DNA of 60,472 nucleotides from positions 1-60,472 of the forward strand of contig JAQXEE010000125.1 in the NCBI GenBank assembly GCA_029251005.1, given 5' to 3'. The notes beneath the pieces are model-generated. The model was not told the DNA's origin. It did no database searches and saw only the letters and a list, made by a program, of their open reading frames with translations. The stretch is from Flavobacteriales bacterium. GTDB lineage: Bacteria; Bacteroidota; Bacteroidia; Flavobacteriales_C; GCA-002722245. A program made the position numbers and the translations under genes. Positions 1-6,521 of this stretch are shown piece after piece. Position 1 is the first letter of the stretch. Every line of letters starts with the position of its first letter.

Positions 1-1549
1 CTTCTTCTAATGCTTGTGAGCTTGATAGTTTTATTTTGACAACCTTTTCAAATTCTTCGATTGCATTTGTCGAAGATTTTTTGATGTTTAATAAAGGCGT
101 TTCTAATTCAAATCCTTGCTTTTTATTTAGCCAATAGTAAGTGTCTAAAACATCAGTTGTTTTCCGAACAAGATCAACATAAAGATTATCGTAAGAATCT
201 TCTTTTTCTATTAATTTGATAACCTCTTTACACTCTGACATTGCTCTAACAACTTCCTTATTTCCAATTTTCGTTAGGAAACTATCAGAAGTATTTGCAA
301 CTAAAGATCCATCGTCTAAAAATGGAGTTGTCCATATTTGAATTGAATGATGAGCTTGTACTTCGTCTTCAGACTTGAAAAAACATAACTCTCCATTTTT
401 AAATAAAGAATAACCATGACAGATAATTGGCTTACCAATCTTTTGCTCAATTAGGTTGTAAGAGAGTAGGAGGTAAATCCCGTCTGGTTTATCATAAAAT
501 ATGTAAAGAAAATCCTCTCCATTAGGGGAGGCTATCCTTTTTTCGAATAGCATTCGCTCAAGATTAAGGTTGAATAATCTAACCTCTCCTGATTGTAAAT
601 ACATCCCTTGTGGGAATATTACACCATGATCATCCGGTAAAAGTGCACAACATTGTTCTATTCCATCAACTCTGGTAGCTTGTTTGATTTTATCGTTATA
701 TATTATGAAACGAGCTTCTTTTTCCTTGTAAGGAAGGATTTTCAGAAAGATTAAATTCTCAACGATCGCATAAGAAATATCTGCATCGTCAAGACCTTGT
801 TCTTTATAATTAACAGGTTCTGCGAAAATTCCTTTTCCCGAATCTGTATTATCTTCTATTTTAATTGTTAAGTCTCCACCAATTGTTTCAACAAAAAGTT
901 TGTCCTCAATAGATATATGTGGATGATTCCCATCTCGATACATATCCCGATTTGTTTTCTTCCAAACAAATTCATGTTGATCAGGATAAACTATCTCATG
1001 TGCACTTCTGTTGTCTACATACTTAAGGCTCTTTTCTTCCTTTTTCCATTTAAAAACCTTGACGTCTTCAATTCTTTTCCCAATTTGAAAAATCATGTAA
1101 ATAAAAGGTCCAATTTCTACAAATTTTAAAAATTGAGTTTCTCGGTAATATTGGTATAGGTTTTCAAAATCGGTAACAAAACGTTTGTCGTTTAATATCG
1201 AAGAAGCGCTTTTATGAAAGGAATGTGCGCCATAAAGTGTTACAGAGAAAACATCAGAAACTCTTGTGGTTGTTCTTAATCCGATGTGGACATTGTACCC
1301 GAAAATGAAGTCGTTACCAAAAGATATCATATCTCTTGGAATACATTTATTGTCTGTTGTAATACGTTCGTTGGCAACTAGCTCAGTTTCAATCGATCCA
1401 AAAACCTCTTTTCTAAGCGAGTTTAATTGGTTTAATTTTGACGCTAACTCATTAGCACCTTTTTGGAGTCTGCCTTTGATTATCTCATAAGTTCCCTCTT
1501 CTAAACTACTTTTTTTATCAACGCTATTTTGGTCTGCTTCTTCCGACAT
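1..1549 (-). CDS. DUF3686-family AAA ATPase ('DNA repair ATPase'), N-terminal part, cut by the window edge
   Basis: The frame is open from an ATG at 1549 to the window edge, giving 516 residues with no stop, so only the N-terminal half or third is visible. It begins MSEEADQNSVDKK and continues with a long region typical of proteins annotated as DNA repair ATPase (DUF3686), for example the stretches ISFGNDFIFGYNVHIGL and VIFPQGMYLQSGEV. The AAA ATPase core expected downstream lies outside the window, so Walker motifs cannot be checked. The gene is last in a row of minus-strand genes after YjfI, PspA-like, YqiJ-like and YqiK-like genes, an association known from other bacteria. A terminator-like hairpin lies between it and the flotillin gene, so it may be transcribed at a lower level or have its own promoter. 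The name 'DNA repair' is historical; given the neighbours, a role in remodelling the PspA/flotillin membrane scaffold is my inference. Confidence 0.72.
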   Translation of the reverse strand, partial: MSEEADQNSVDKKSSLEEGTYEIIKGRLQKGANELASKLNQLNSLRKEVFGSIETELVANERITTDNKCIPRDMISFGNDFIFGYNVHIGLRTTTRVSDVFSVTLYGAHSFHKSASSILNDKRFVTDFENLYQYYRETQFLKFVEIGPFIYMIFQIGKRIEDVKVFKWKKEEKSLKYVDNRSAHEIVYPDQHEFVWKKTNRDMYRDGNHPHISIEDKLFVETIGGDLTIKIEDNTDSGKGIFAEPVNYKEQGLDDADISYAIVENLIFLKILPYKEKEARFIIYNDKIKQATRVDGIEQCCALLPDDHGVIFPQGMYLQSGEVRLFNLNLERMLFEKRIASPNGEDFLYIFYDKPDGIYLLLSYNLIEQKIGKPIICHGYSLFKNGELCFFKSEDEVQAHHSIQIWTTPFLDDGSLVANTSDSFLTKIGNKEVVRAMSECKEVIKLIEKEDSYDNLYVDLVRKTTDVLDTYYWLNKKQGFELETPLLNIKKSSTNAIEEFEKVVKIKLSSSQALEE

Positions 1550-1611
1550 TTTACATTATAAATTTGAAACAATTTTGAAATTAAGTATGCTTATTAAAAT
1601 TATAAGCCACA

Positions 1612-1652
1612 CCAAAAAATAAAAGCTAGGTCATTTAATAAAACAACCTAGC
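1612..1652 (-). terminator. Terminator-like hairpin between flotillin and ATPase genes
   Basis: The arms GCTAGGT (1625-1631) and ACCTAGC (1646-1652) are perfectly complementary around a 14-nt loop. Read on the minus strand the hairpin is followed by a T-rich tract (complement of 1612-1624). It sits just past the stop of the flotillin gene, and could end transcription there or let only part of it read through into the ATPase gene. Confidence 0.5.
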
Positions 1653-1658
1653 GATATT

Positions 1659-3830
1659 TTATTTTTTAATTCCTAAAGCATCAGGAGTTAAGTTGCCAAC
1701 TCCGGCCTTATTTACAGTTTCAAGTAATGAGGCCAAAATTCCCTTCGTTTTAGAATCACCAGCTTCTTGGTTCATTCTAATTAAAAGATTGGCTACACTT
1801 AAGTTTTTCAAGTCTTCCGATGTTACGCCGAATTGACCAATTAATGATCTAATTTTCTCACCCATATTAGCTCCTTCTGAGTTGTCTAAAAGGTGATCTT
1901 TGACCTCTGTAAGAACAGGTGAGTTATTTAATGCTCTTTCAACATATTTTCCATTTGAAATGGCTCCAACAATTTTATCGAAGAATACTTGCTCACCACC
2001 TACGATATCAATATTAGCGGATTTTAAAGCAGTTGCTAAAACGGTAGCTTGTGCATCAGCAATGTCCTTTTGTATGTGAATTTGAGCCAAGTCAATCTCT
2101 TTGTCTTTATCTAATTTCAACTTGAATTCCTCATGTTCTTTTCCAACACCATCTAGTTTTTTCATTGCGGCAGCTTTCTCATCAATACCAATTGCTTCAA
2201 CATGATATTTCTCAGATGTAACGGCAGCTTCAGCCAATCCTTTTTCTTTCTCAGCCTCTGCAATTGCAGTAATGATTTCACTTTCAGCAAGACCTTTTTC
2301 TTTCGAAACTTTCGCAGCAGCTTCACCGATTTCTAAATCAGAAATTGCTTGAGCATGAGATTTAGCTTGGATTCCTTTTGCTTGAGCCAAAGCTTCAGCT
2401 TCAATTACAGCAGCATTCGCATCTCCTTCTTTCTCCCTCGCGGCAGCTTTAGCCTCCATTACTTGGGCTTCAGATATTCCAATCGCAGCTTCCTCGGCCG
2501 CTTTTGCATCAGCTAATGTTTTAATAGCTTGTGCTTTTTGGATCGATGCTTCTTGATCTGCTTGTGCGTCGATTACTTTTTGCTTTGCATTATGTTCGGC
2601 AGCTTCTTTACCAGCTTCTGCCTTTTTAATTTGTTGTACCAAAGCTGCTTCAGCTTCCTCCTCAGCTTTAGTTATCGCAACAAGCTTATCACGATCAGCT
2701 AATGATTTAGCTTTAGTATCTTTAATGCTTTCTTCTTCAACAACGACTGTTTTTTCAATCGCAACTCTTTCTCTAATTACTTCTTGAATGTTCTTTTTTT
2801 CTTCTTCAACAGCTTTTTCCTTTTCAATTTGAGCTAAAGTTACCACCCTTTCTCTCTCTGTTAATTCTAATAAACGGTCTTTTTCAACTCTTTCCGTTTC
2901 AACTGCTGCAGTTCTTTCTTTGTTTTTCGAAGCAACAATTACTTCTCTTTCCTTATTTTCTTCAGCAATTTGAAGTTCTTCCTCAACAGATATTCTCGTG
3001 TTTTCTGCTTTTAATCTTTCTTCTTCTGCTACTTTAGAAATTTCAGCTTCTTCACGTGATTTGATATTGGCGATTTCTCTTTTTTGTTGTTCTTCTTTTT
3101 CTGAAAGTTGTTTTTCAAGTTGTAGAATTGCTTCCCTCGCTTCAACATCTTGTTTTTTAATTACCTTTTCTTTATCTCTTTGGATAAGGTTTGCTTGAAC
3201 TTTCTCCCTGGAAGTGATATCTATGATCTTTTTAATACCCTCAGCATCCAAGATATTTGATTCACTTAATTGATCTAAAGGAGTTTGTTCCAAATAGTCA
3301 ATTGCAGCGTCATCTAATACATAACCATTTAAGTCGGTACCAATTGTGTTGATAATTTCTTGACGGAATTCATCACGCTTGTTGTACAGATCAACAAAAT
3401 CAAACTTTTTACCTACTGTTTTTAAGGCTTCAGAGAATTTCGAATCAAATAAAGATCCTAAAGCTGCAAGATCAGATGCCCTTTTACAGCCAACAGATTG
3501 TGCTACTTTTATAACATGGTCTGCTGTTTTGTTTACTCTTACAAAGAATACTACTTTGATATCAGCCCTCATGTTGTCTTTACAAACTAACCCATCATTT
3601 CCATTTCTTTCGATAATGATGTTTTTAAGCGAAATATCCATTAATTCTAACTTGTGTAAAACTGGAACAATAAGTATTCCATTGAAGGATACTTTTGTTC
3701 CTCCTACTCCTGTTTTAACTAAAGCTTGTCCTTGAGAAGTTTTGCGGTACCATTTGGCAATCATTGCGATTATTCCAAGTGCTACTAGAAGAACTCCTCC
3801 TCCTACTGTAAATAATAAATTGTCTAACAT
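1659..3830 (-). CDS. yqiK: YqiK-like flotillin (SPFH/Band 7 protein) with an extended coiled coil
   Basis: The 723-residue protein has one N-terminal membrane segment (about residues 5-26, rich in V, G, L and I), then an SPFH/Band 7 domain to roughly residue 200. A very long Glu/Lys/Ala-rich coiled coil follows to about residue 600, with heptad-like repeats such as KEKGLAESEIITAIAEAEKE. A globular flotillin-type C-terminus comes last. Flotillins oligomerise on the inner membrane and organise membrane microdomains. E. coli YqiK is about 550 residues, so this copy is longer, mainly in the coiled coil. It lies between the YqiJ-like and DUF3686 genes; the YqiJ-YqiK pairing is the same as in E. 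coli. The start ATG at 3830 fits the membrane anchor. Confidence 0.85.
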   Translation of the reverse strand: MLDNLLFTVGGGVLLVALGIIAMIAKWYRKTSQGQALVKTGVGGTKVSFNGILIVPVLHKLELMDISLKNIIIERNGNDGLVCKDNMRADIKVVFFVRVNKTADHVIKVAQSVGCKRASDLAALGSLFDSKFSEALKTVGKKFDFVDLYNKRDEFRQEIINTIGTDLNGYVLDDAAIDYLEQTPLDQLSESNILDAEGIKKIIDITSREKVQANLIQRDKEKVIKKQDVEAREAILQLEKQLSEKEEQQKREIANIKSREEAEISKVAEEERLKAENTRISVEEELQIAEENKEREVIVASKNKERTAAVETERVEKDRLLELTERERVVTLAQIEKEKAVEEEKKNIQEVIRERVAIEKTVVVEEESIKDTKAKSLADRDKLVAITKAEEEAEAALVQQIKKAEAGKEAAEHNAKQKVIDAQADQEASIQKAQAIKTLADAKAAEEAAIGISEAQVMEAKAAAREKEGDANAAVIEAEALAQAKGIQAKSHAQAISDLEIGEAAAKVSKEKGLAESEIITAIAEAEKEKGLAEAAVTSEKYHVEAIGIDEKAAAMKKLDGVGKEHEEFKLKLDKDKEIDLAQIHIQKDIADAQATVLATALKSANIDIVGGEQVFFDKIVGAISNGKYVERALNNSPVLTEVKDHLLDNSEGANMGEKIRSLIGQFGVTSEDLKNLSVANLLIRMNQEAGDSKTKGILASLLETVNKAGVGNLTPDALGIKK

Positions 3831-3849
3831 TTGATTTTGATTTTAGTTG

Positions 3850-4539
3850 TTAATCGATTGAAAAATGAGGTTCTACTAAATAGCAATCATCTTTTGATAT
3901 GAATTTTACAATCATTGCTTGTTCTCCTTTTTCAATATTCCCTTGATTAGTTTTTACATTTAATAAAAAGTTCCCTCCATTAATAAAAGCTTCCGCTTGA
4001 CCCATTTTTGTTTCTGTTATTGGGTATTTTATTGTTACGATTCTTCCTAGTAAATCTCCTGATGTTTCAGATTGATTTTCTAATGATCTAAAGATTTTTA
4101 CAAAAGGTATTGTTGTGAATTTAGCTATGAAAAGTGATACAAATCCTATTGGTAAGAGGGTGATTAATGAAAAGAAAAAGGATTGGATTCCTAAAATATC
4201 ATTAATATAAACTGTCCCAAATAATGTTGGAATCACCCAGAAGCTTAAAAAAACCATTAACGGTATGTCTCCTAGATTGAAAAACTTCAGCACATTATTT
4301 AAAAACGAAATATCATTCTCTCCAGTAGCCCCTAGCTCCGCTTCATAGTCCATTTCAACGTCTAGGCTTATGTCTGTTTCGAAATCGATATCTAGTTCAA
4401 CATCGAATGAACTTAAATCTAATGCTCCAAAAATCACCAAAACCCAATAGCTCATAACAAAGCAAAATATAAGTGTAGGTATGATATTAGCGGCGGAAAA
4501 TAGAATGTCAACCATCCCAGATAAAAATATTACAAACAT
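3850..4539 (-). CDS. yqiJ: YqiJ-like membrane protein with NfeD/OB-fold domain (DUF1449)
   Basis: This 229-residue protein has a hydrophobic N-terminal segment (about 10-40), an acidic stretch (DVELDIDFETDISLDVEMDY), and two further hydrophobic segments (about 95-150). The soluble C-terminal domain (about 165-229, starting near GDLLGRIVTIKYP and ending YLVEPHFSID) has the pattern of an NfeD/YqiJ OB-fold. NfeD-type proteins partner flotillins in the membrane, and the flotillin gene follows 19 nt downstream. The start could be M1 (4539) or M9 (4515); M9 would give the more usual short lead-in. The PspA-like gene ends 6 nt upstream, so the two are probably co-transcribed. Confidence 0.78.
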   Translation of the reverse strand: MFVIFLSGMVDILFSAANIIPTLIFCFVMSYWVLVIFGALDLSSFDVELDIDFETDISLDVEMDYEAELGATGENDISFLNNVLKFFNLGDIPLMVFLSFWVIPTLFGTVYINDILGIQSFFFSLITLLPIGFVSLFIAKFTTIPFVKIFRSLENQSETSGDLLGRIVTIKYPITETKMGQAEAFINGGNFLLNVKTNQGNIEKGEQAMIVKFISKDDCYLVEPHFSID

Positions 4540-4545
4540 GGTTAA

Positions 4546-5244
4546 TTATTTAGTTTTGTTAATGCTTATTTTTTGCTTTAAAGTATTCAAGTCTTCTTGT
4601 GTGTGATTTGCTTTTAAATTGTTATCTAGATTTATCGGATAATGTACTTTTGTTAAATCTTGATAAGATTTCAATAAAGCCTCTTCCTGAATTACTTCAT
4701 CTCTCAATTTGTTTAATAAAGTAATCGTATTATTTGAATTTAATAATGCCAATTGCTTGTTTAAGTTTTTTGTTGCGGTACTAATTTTGATTCTACCATT
4801 AAGTATTTTTAATTCATTTTCCCATTTTGAAATAGTTGATTTAATGATATAAATGTTTTTATTTAATTGTGTGTACTTTTTCTCAAAGTGGTTATGTTCG
4901 CTTTTGGCTTTCTTACTTAATTTAATTTGTAATGCTTTCTTTTGCAACGCTTCTACTGCTAGTTGATCTGCTTCAATTATTGACAGGGTTTTCTGTTGCC
5001 CTTTTTGAAGGATTAAAATAGCTTTTTGTTCATAGTCGTAACTATTCTTTTCAAACTTTTCAGCTTCGTTTTTGGCACGAATGGATAAGACTTTAATTTC
5101 AGCTAAAACCTCCCGGTTTTTTTTAATTTCAGACTTTAAGTTTTTAATACTTTCTTCGATAAAACTTATTGGTATTTCTAGATTATCTAAAATACTATTG
5201 GTTTTCGTTTCTATTGTTTTGAAAAACCTTTTAAAGAAGTTCAT
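4546..5244 (-). CDS. PspA/IM30-family coiled-coil protein (YjfJ-like)
   Basis: The protein (232 residues from the ATG at 5244) is almost wholly alpha-helical and rich in K, E, N, L and I. The N-terminal amphipathic helix (MNFFKRFFKTIETKTNSIL) resembles the membrane-binding helix of PspA/IM30/Vipp1, and a long hairpin of coiled coil follows. PspA-family proteins are ESCRT-III-like membrane remodellers that protect the inner membrane under stress. The frame also allows a TTG start at 5259 overlapping the YjfI stop, but the ATG 11 nt after that stop places the amphipathic helix at the extreme N-terminus as usual. It lies between YjfI and YqiJ-like genes, the order expected of this cluster. The C-terminal third is divergent. 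Confidence 0.78.
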   Translation of the reverse strand: MNFFKRFFKTIETKTNSILDNLEIPISFIEESIKNLKSEIKKNREVLAEIKVLSIRAKNEAEKFEKNSYDYEQKAILILQKGQQKTLSIIEADQLAVEALQKKALQIKLSKKAKSEHNHFEKKYTQLNKNIYIIKSTISKWENELKILNGRIKISTATKNLNKQLALLNSNNTITLLNKLRDEVIQEEALLKSYQDLTKVHYPINLDNNLKANHTQEDLNTLKQKISINKTK

Positions 5245-5255
5245 CAGGATAGAGT

Positions 5256-5651
5256 TCAAACCTTTGAAAACTCAAGAAGTCTATTCCCGTACTCAGATAA
5301 CAATAATGTAAGTGAGTTAATTGACCCTTCTAACTCATTTTGATCAAGATTCTCAATTTGCAAAGTGTCTCTAAAAATGATTTTTTCTCCAGTCTCATTA
5401 AGAACAAATGCACCATGAACAATGTCTCTGTTTTTTTGAAGCAACTCACGAAACATTTCATCATTTCCTGATTTAGTTTCAAAGATATATTGTTCGATGA
5501 TTAAAATAGGATCAGCACAACCAATCACTAGGTTTTTGATTCCCAAGTTTTCATTGTCAAGTAAGAAAATTTGGTCTTCAATATTTTCGTGGGTTATTGT
5601 GTGTCCTAGCTCAAGGATGTAGTTTTTGACTTTTTGGAAATTATCACTCAT
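5256..5651 (-). CDS. yjfI: YjfI family protein (DUF2170)
   Basis: This small soluble protein of 131 residues matches the DUF2170/YjfI pattern: a central NENLGIKNLVIGCADPILI segment, then VHGAFVLNETGEKIIFRDT and LQIENLDQNELEGSINSL near the end. No signal peptide or membrane segment is visible. Its molecular function is not known. In E. coli yjfI is followed by the pspA paralogue yjfJ, and the same order is seen here. It is the first gene of the minus-strand cluster and diverges from the XRE regulator, with about 207 nt of shared upstream DNA. Confidence 0.82.
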   Translation of the reverse strand: MSDNFQKVKNYILELGHTITHENIEDQIFLLDNENLGIKNLVIGCADPILIIEQYIFETKSGNDEMFRELLQKNRDIVHGAFVLNETGEKIIFRDTLQIENLDQNELEGSINSLTLLLSEYGNRLLEFSKV

Positions 5652-5745: not shown

Positions 5746-5757
5746 CCACCAAGGTGG
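5746..5757. promoter_or_regulatory. Short inverted repeat in the divergent yjfI/XRE control region
   Basis: CCACC-AA-GGTGG forms a compact palindrome in otherwise very AT-rich DNA between the two divergent genes. It lies just upstream of the plus-strand TAnnTTTG-like box. An operator role is plausible but untested. Confidence 0.25.
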
Positions 5758-5769
5758 GTGAGTATTTTT

Positions 5770-5777: not shown

Positions 5778-5826
5778 CTAACATAACTATACAAATATAT
5801 ATTAATTAATGTGTTTAAGCAAATTT

Positions 5827-5859
5827 AATTAGCTTTAAATACTAAAAAAATTAGCTTTA
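5827..5859. repeat. Direct repeat overlapping the XRE regulator start codon
   Basis: AATTAGCTTTA occurs at 5827-5837 and again at 5849-5859, offset by 22 bp, which is about two helical turns. The second copy ends on the A of the ATG. Phased direct repeats in this place are typical of binding sites for an autoregulating HTH protein; this is an inference. Confidence 0.4.
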
Positions 5860-6521
5860 TGTCGTTTATAGGAAGAAATATCAAAAAAATCAGAACAACA
5901 AAAGGTTTAAGTCAGACTGAGTTTGGTAAGATTTTTGGAATTACTAGAGGTTCAATTGGTTCTTATGAAGAAGGTAGGGCAGAACCTAAAATAGAAACCT
6001 TAAAAACGATTGCTAATAAATTTAGCATATCGCTAGACGCGATTATTACAGCTGAATTAACGGTAAATCAACTATCAGGTTTTAATCCTGATCAATTATT
6101 CGATAAAAATTCTTTAGAGTCTAATGAAAATGGTTTGCCTTCGGTTTTACCGAAATCTTTAATAGATAAGCACGGTGATTTAACACTATTAAGTCAAAAT
6201 ACTTTTTTTAAGACTTCCTTAAATTCAAAGGCTGATTTTAGTTTAACCTTTGATGAATCGATTGAATTATCCGGAGTAAATGCCACTAAGGGAGACGTCC
6301 TTTTTTGTAAAAAAGCATACGGTAAATCACCGTTTGGGTTTTTACTTTTGAAAGATAGTAAATTGTACTGGCAAGTACAGGAGCCTGACTTTACCGAAGG
6401 TGTGTTTTTTAAAGTAGTTGGATTACTTTCTTCTTCCTTTATGATCGAAAATAAAAATCCGCTTCAGCAGAAATTATCCGAATTAGAATTAAGGATTATT
6501 AATCTAGAAGCGAAGTCATAG
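5859..6521 (+). CDS. XRE-family transcriptional regulator with LexA/S24-like C-terminal domain
   Basis: The 220-residue protein starts with a clear HTH_3 domain (about residues 5-60; GLSQTEFGKIFGITRGSIGS then EEGRAEPKIETL). The C-terminal half (about 110-205) has the outline of the beta-rich fold of LexA/CI-type S24 proteins, with ATKGDVLFCKK where these proteins have GD-x-V. The Ser/Lys pair needed for self-cleavage is not apparent, so it may sense a signal without autoproteolysis. It is divergent from the YjfI-PspA cluster and its stop overlaps the end of the convergent cysteine desulfurase gene by 23 nt. Likely targets are itself, the divergent cluster, or more distant genes such as dinB; none is proven by sequence alone. 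Confidence 0.75.
   Translation: MSFIGRNIKKIRTTKGLSQTEFGKIFGITRGSIGSYEEGRAEPKIETLKTIANKFSISLDAIITAELTVNQLSGFNPDQLFDKNSLESNENGLPSVLPKSLIDKHGDLTLLSQNTFFKTSLNSKADFSLTFDESIELSGVNATKGDVLFCKKAYGKSPFGFLLLKDSKLYWQVQEPDFTEGVFFKVVGLLSSSFMIENKNPLQQKLSELELRIINLEAKS

Follow-up and report, generated by a model that had tools for sequence, protein, structure and literature searches.

The ATPase of a five-gene bacterial operon tracks a flotillin and a YqiJ-like membrane protein across genomes, and not the PspA homologue encoded beside them. The operon lies on the minus strand of a 60,472-nucleotide stretch of Flavobacteriales DNA (the window), which starts at base 1 of contig C157 (JAQXEE010000125.1) in a 2.9 Mb assembly of 161 contigs, and it encodes, leftwards from position 5651, a CesT/Tir-type protein, PspA, the YqiJ-like protein, the flotillin and a DUF3686 ATPase. 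An earlier note on this DNA had singled out the five genes as a candidate membrane-remodelling system. Their association is real, but it had already been published: Ravi et al. (2024; PMC11237479) described exactly this combination of CesT/Tir-PspA, Band-7/flotillin, YqiJ and beta-propeller AAA+ proteins, together with abbreviated operons that are free of PspA. What is new here is the retention of the ATPase where PspA is missing, the association of the operon with an XRE regulator and a candidate operator, and an AAA+ core that falls outside the Vps4 group.

Results

We collected 80 relatives of the ATPase from named genomes, and the 59 loci with at least 6 kilobases (kb) of upstream sequence were testable for gene content. 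PspA was adjacent in 18 of these and not in the other 41, and 34 of the 41 (34/59 overall) nonetheless carried YqiJ, flotillin and ATPase together. These PspA-free loci span the Planctomycetota, Verrucomicrobiota, Acidobacteriota, Calditrichota and Desulfobacterota, among others. On an approximate FastTree phylogeny of the ATPase, the presence of PspA switches at least seven times. CesT accompanies PspA in 17 of 19 PspA loci, and one of the two exceptions is cut by a contig edge. The earlier note had expected the gene order to recur in related genomes, and it is indeed conserved far above chance.

The pattern extends beyond the immediate neighbourhood. We searched 36 genomes that have the ATPase without an adjacent PspA, using PF04012 and a purpose-built PspA profile that does detect a degenerate copy in Rufibacter. 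By both models PspA was missing from 10 of the 36, namely Pontibacter L020, L021, L022, L026 and L028, Persicirhabdus L088, Planctomycetota L037, L038 and L040 and the Saprospiraceae genome L067; at least four of these genomes come from metagenomes and could be incomplete. A flotillin of the same subfamily was present in all seven tested ATPase genomes where none had been called beside the ATPase, and was not found in four of four ATPase-lacking relatives from the window's genus or family. Given these co-occurrence and PspA-presence counts, we take YqiJ-flotillin-ATPase to be the core of the system and CesT-PspA to be a common addition in Bacteroidota. Within a random sample of 395 genomes of this phylum, DUF3686 occurred in 10, and in all 10 a gene with a strong CesT_Tir_1 match lay no more than a few kb away (Fisher p about 1e-13, uncorrected for kinship).

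All five minus-strand open reading frames are present in the window. The first (5256..5651) encodes a small chaperone-like protein of 131 residues that matches CesT_Tir_1 (PF22550, E=1.4e-54). It had been labelled DUF2170/YjfI, which is wrong at the family level because DUF2170 (PF09938) gave no match at E<=0.1; both families belong to the CesT/Tir superfamily. The identification of the second product (4546..5244) as an ESCRT-III-like PspA homologue held up, with the PspA_IM30 profile of the PspA/Vipp1 superfamily (PF04012, E=8e-20, residues 8-228) covering its full length. A TTG start at 5259 is probably unused, since the ATG at 5244 matches the starts of relatives in the alignment. The PspA ortholog of a genome of the same genus (G004) matched a solved Vipp1 at 9e-16. 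The third gene (3850..4539) encodes a membrane protein of 229 residues, announced as an NfeD/OB-fold protein. Its C-terminal domain is OB-like and we class it as YqiJ/NfeD-like, although its own YqiJ_N match is weak (E=0.0041, below the cut-off). YqiJ_N was matched by 11 of 24 sequences, comprising relatives and the window protein, with a best value of 7.5e-6, and the NfeD profile by 2 of the 24 (best 0.0022). The fourth gene (1659..3830) is a flotillin, as had been proposed, with 723 residues arranged as a transmembrane segment, a Band_7/SPFH domain (E=1.1e-10, residues 1-230) and a coiled coil. The ATPase gene (2..1549) supplies the N-terminal 516 residues of a DUF3686 protein (PF12458, E=1e-181) and is open at the contig end. 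Sequence searches of the PDB returned no relatives of the flotillin, the YqiJ-like protein or CesT.

The gaps between the genes are, in operon order, 11 base pairs (bp) between CesT and PspA, then 6, 19 and 109 bp. The description of five genes in tight order therefore fits the first four and suits the ATPase less well, as the 109-bp gap between flotillin and ATPase contains a terminator-like hairpin on the minus strand (1625..1652; 12 pairs, then TTTTATTTTT). In other genomes this gap is occupied by variable small genes (L010, L020-L028, L032 and others), and the two found in L010 have lipoprotein-like starts. CesT and PspA share one reading frame in loci L009, L011 and L012.

The remainder of the ATPase appears to lie on another contig of the same assembly, C75. 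The end of C75 (C75:46307-47084) overlaps window positions 1-778 over 778 bp without gaps and at 94.7% identity, and the codon differences in this overlap are 34 synonymous versus 7 nonsynonymous. C75 carries the frame on for 1,369 residues (L008:7976-12085, minus strand), bringing the ATPase to about 1,626 residues overall. We read the overlap as one gene broken in assembly by strain variation; this leaves a little room for a second, truncated copy of the ATPase. As the earlier note had anticipated, an ATPase domain lies past the left edge of the window: the C75 part contains a complete AAA+ domain (Pfam AAA 6e-7, AAA_5 5e-6) with Walker A and B motifs. A TerB-like gene sits directly downstream of the ATPase in two loci of the genus (L008:7542-7940 on C75, and L009:15307-15711), and TerB-like genes are also found 3' of the ATPase in L013, L024 and L076.

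The AAA+ motifs SPPGYGKTT, DDIQH and AGNP, an NR arginine at the arginine-finger position and GSYR with the sensor-2 arginine are invariant in 80 of 80 relatives. Pfam AAA and AAA_5 were matched by all 56 members tested; the MoxR model AAA_3 was absent among the same 56, which sets the family apart from MoxR AAA+ proteins. Neither the C75 part nor either of two full-length relatives gave a Pfam match to MIT or Vps4_C. An AlphaFold2 model of the N-terminal 516 residues (mean predicted local distance difference test score, pLDDT, of 88) comprises a long helix, a beta-propeller and further helices, and propellers are among its leading Foldseek matches, with low TM-scores. The model of the C-terminal 782 residues (pLDDT 84, falling below 50 just before and over the P-loop) places a two-strand hairpin (strands 516-521 and 524-529) after the Walker B helix and before the sensor-1 strand. 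We take such a hairpin to be the mark of the pre-sensor-1 hairpin group of AAA+ proteins. At E about 1e-3, the structural neighbours of this model were RuvB, MCM, CbbQ/NorQ (only weakly similar) and Clp proteins, and there was no Vps4 among the 50 matches listed. Profile matches to p97 span the Walker A region only and do not decide the clade. A classical AAA core of the Vps4 kind would have neither the pre-sensor-1 hairpin nor the sensor-2 arginine, whereas the model, with its low-confidence P-loop region, shows the hairpin and the alignment of 80 relatives an invariant GSYR. The AAA+ core thus appears non-classical. The ATPase had been likened to Vps4; it is no Vps4 homologue in the narrow sense, and it could still act on polymers.

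PspA is the most divergent product of the window's operon when compared with the same genus. It shares 45.7% identity with its counterpart in G004, against 86% for the flotillin, 79% for the ATPase, 73% for CesT, 70% for the XRE protein and 66% for YqiJ. It is also basic (isoelectric point 9.6, net charge +14 versus about -3), and its gene is low in G+C. Two Rufibacter PspAs (L017, L042) are shortened and have lost much of the central hairpin. Together these comparisons suggest weaker constraint on PspA than on its neighbours in these operons.

A divergent XRE/Cro-type helix-turn-helix regulator (5859..6521, plus strand; Pfam HTH_3 7e-13) precedes the operon and is its predicted controller. 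A divergent XRE gene was found in 15 of the 18 DUF3686 loci that contain PspA and in none of the 41 without it. Further loci, inspected over a 1.5 kb flank, gave the same picture: XRE was present in 9 of 9 five-gene loci (one of which, L120, comes from the same genome as L011) and in 0 of 20 CesT-PspA loci without the ATPase operon. The 16 XRE-CesT intergenic regions contain 18 matches to the palindrome GCTMAn5TKAGC versus 0.4 expected, the motif having been derived from these regions. Among later loci, sites were present in 7 of 9 versus 0 of 15, or in 6 of 8 when L120, part of the derivation set, is left out. The palindrome is not enriched over the whole window (5 versus 4.8 expected, allowing one mismatch). 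Genome-wide counts carry no weight because a reversed-pattern control gave as many perfect matches (6 versus 6), and only the local, intergenic enrichment counts. Across 35 loci without PspA, we found four occurrences of the motif upstream of YqiJ, three of which belong to two Aureivirga. The XRE gene is thus tied to the five-gene arrangement, and the promoter region that they share contains a conserved palindrome. This XRE-CesT-PspA module is missing in most Pontibacter (L020-L028) and retained in P. chinhatensis (L027).

In the window, one candidate operator (ACTAAAAAAATTAGC, 5841..5855) fits the motif with one mismatch. A second (GCAAATTTAATTAGC, 5819..5833) overlaps the predicted -33 box of a promoter-like pair that points towards CesT on the minus strand (5792..5823), which reads TTTG (5823-5820), 20 nucleotides and TATATTTG (5799-5792). 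This pair resembles promoters of the Bacteroidota type. A perfect palindrome also occurs inside the XRE coding sequence (6012-6026) and may be due to chance, and a small GC hairpin followed by TTTTTT (5746-5761), in the leader that separates CesT from the predicted promoter, is a possible attenuator. The same genome has a second CesT-PspA locus (L012, C8:40468-50468), accompanied by DUF4178, an AdoMet decarboxylase and a multi-transmembrane synthase-like gene, and its CesT has a perfect palindrome upstream.

Discussion

We favour, with about even confidence, a reading in which the flotillin and YqiJ form a membrane platform equipped with a dedicated AAA+ machine and, in Bacteroidota, extended by an XRE-controlled CesT-PspA repair module. 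A broader version is somewhat less probable: DUF3686 proteins might be a family of AAA+ motors dedicated to the flotillin-YqiJ assemblies of bacteria, so that an SPFH platform has an ATP-driven remodeller to itself, in a logic resembling HflKC-FtsH without the protease, with a non-Vps4 core and a CesT-PspA module under XRE control that was added by Bacteroidota and repeatedly lost. Mechanistically, flotillin and YqiJ would build an oligomeric inner-membrane scaffold that collects membrane or damaged proteins. The ATPase would bind this scaffold or its clients through the beta-propeller and long helix, and would use ATP to extract, unfold or rearrange them. In many Bacteroidota, the CesT-PspA pair is a second module placed in front. 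Under envelope stress, the XRE protein, presumably bound to the palindromes of the shared promoter region, would release or activate the operon. CesT, small and chaperone-like, may restrain PspA until it is needed; an adaptor or chaperone role of this kind, which the earlier note had given to a DUF2170 protein, is plausible for the CesT_Tir_1 protein found instead. PspA would then polymerise at the platform and seal the membrane, by analogy with B. subtilis, where the SPFH protein YdjI recruits PspA and is needed for its membrane foci (PMC8581546). The idea of a flotillin/NfeD platform working with PspA, already put forward for this operon, agrees with that work and with the FloA-NfeD complex of S. 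aureus (PMC11222466).

Several observations weigh against this reading. FloA-NfeD holds and stabilises unfolded proteins without ATP (PMC11222466). Walker B is DD and not DE in every member of the ATPase family, so ATP may be hydrolysed slowly or not at all. The flotillin and ATPase genes often lie far apart (gaps of 28 to over 3,000 bp), and this, with the terminator-like hairpin in the window, means that the ATPase may be expressed separately. The absence of the flotillin from genomes lacking the ATPase is a finding on four relatives. Finally, with CesT near the ATPase in 10 of 10 genomes, the CesT-ATPase link is strong within the sampled part of Bacteroidota.

Some of these points could also be accommodated if the genes were co-regulated and mechanically separate, with XRE switching on CesT-PspA for sealing and YqiJ-flotillin-ATPase for another task, and no machine shared between them. 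The presence of the PspA module varies between loci in which the other genes persist, and the hairpin and variable gap before the ATPase would fit such an arrangement. We nevertheless consider it only a possible account, given the physical links between SPFH proteins and PspA in B. subtilis and the co-occurrence of flotillin and ATPase even where they are not adjacent.

A bacterial ESCRT-like cycle seems to us unlikely. Here, in the manner of Vps4 and ESCRT-III, the AAA+ protein would recognise a short C-terminal helix of PspA and take apart PspA polymers at the flotillin platform, with CesT as adaptor. PspA and the ATPase do share one operon in many Bacteroidota, and Ravi et al. proposed ATP-dependent remodelling for PspA/AAA+ pairs (PMC11237479). 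The operon PspAs also share a conserved [DE]LxALKxKLGL-like C-terminal tail with a loose resemblance to MIM1; a polyamine-operon PspA with no adjoining ATPase has a similar tail, and we dropped this tail as a MIM motif and as evidence for Vps4-like action. The earlier note had the ATPase drive PspA turnover like Vps4, yet genomes devoid of PspA still retain the ATPase alongside flotillin and YqiJ, and the ATPase has neither MIT nor Vps4_C and combines a modelled pre-sensor-1 hairpin with an invariant sensor-2 arginine. Moreover, the hairpin is incomplete in the Rufibacter PspAs, and PspA in the window diverges rapidly alongside a conserved ATPase. Since PspA is an optional addition under its own predicted switch across many genomes, it is improbable that the ATPase recycles PspA as the Vps4 motor does in the ESCRT system.

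That the ATPase serves DNA repair or anti-phage defense beside unrelated membrane genes is very improbable: the Pfam name "ATPase involved in DNA repair" and a weak structural similarity to RuvB and MCM, which is common throughout this part of the AAA+ fold, are set against PADLOC finding no match for any of the five proteins and membrane-gene neighbours that persist in several phyla.

This operon bears on whether bacterial flotillins have an energy-using partner and on whether bacterial PspA systems have a Vps4 equivalent. It looks like a case of each, and our comparison points the ATPase at the flotillin rather than at PspA. Natural pairs for separating the two functions are offered by Pontibacter species that have or lack the PspA module and by Persicirhabdus, in which PspA is missing altogether.

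Among known systems, ESCRT-III/Vps4 is similar in that an ESCRT-III-superfamily protein is encoded near an AAA+ ATPase, and differs in that the window-type AAA+ protein has no MIT or Vps4_C, appears non-classical and occurs in PspA-free genomes. In YjfI-YjfJ of E. coli and BacA-BacB of P. aeruginosa, a CesT-fold gene likewise adjoins a PspA homologue, and BacA, a CesT-fold YjfI protein, has been reported as unpublished data to bind its PspA partner. Unlike the window protein, the CesT-fold proteins of these pairs are DUF2170 and not CesT_Tir_1, and no flotillin or AAA+ partners have been described for them. FloA-NfeD and E. coli YqiJ-YqiK share the flotillin with its NfeD/YqiJ partner, whereas their operons as described include no ATPase or PspA module. 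The pspA-ydjGHI operon of B. subtilis combines the SPFH protein YdjI with PspA and membrane anchors, as in the window, but has no AAA+ ATPase, CesT or YqiJ, and its SPFH protein resides in fluid regions. The closest counterpart is the operon of Ravi et al. (PMC11237479). In their main text, as far as we searched it, the divergent XRE, the palindrome and the TerB-like gene go unmentioned, the AAA+ clade is not placed and PspA-free genomes are not tested. The YqiJ/YuaF three-transmembrane type that they list is a tentative assignment for the window's third protein, whose YqiJ_N match is below the cut-off although 11 of 24 family members match. The second CesT-PspA locus of our genome resembles their second group. 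The window operon has the same gene set and domain architectures as theirs, with an adjacent CesT/Tir-PspA dyad, a Band_7 domain in the first 230 residues of the flotillin, and an ATPase that joins a modelled N-terminal propeller to the AAA+ domain on C75.

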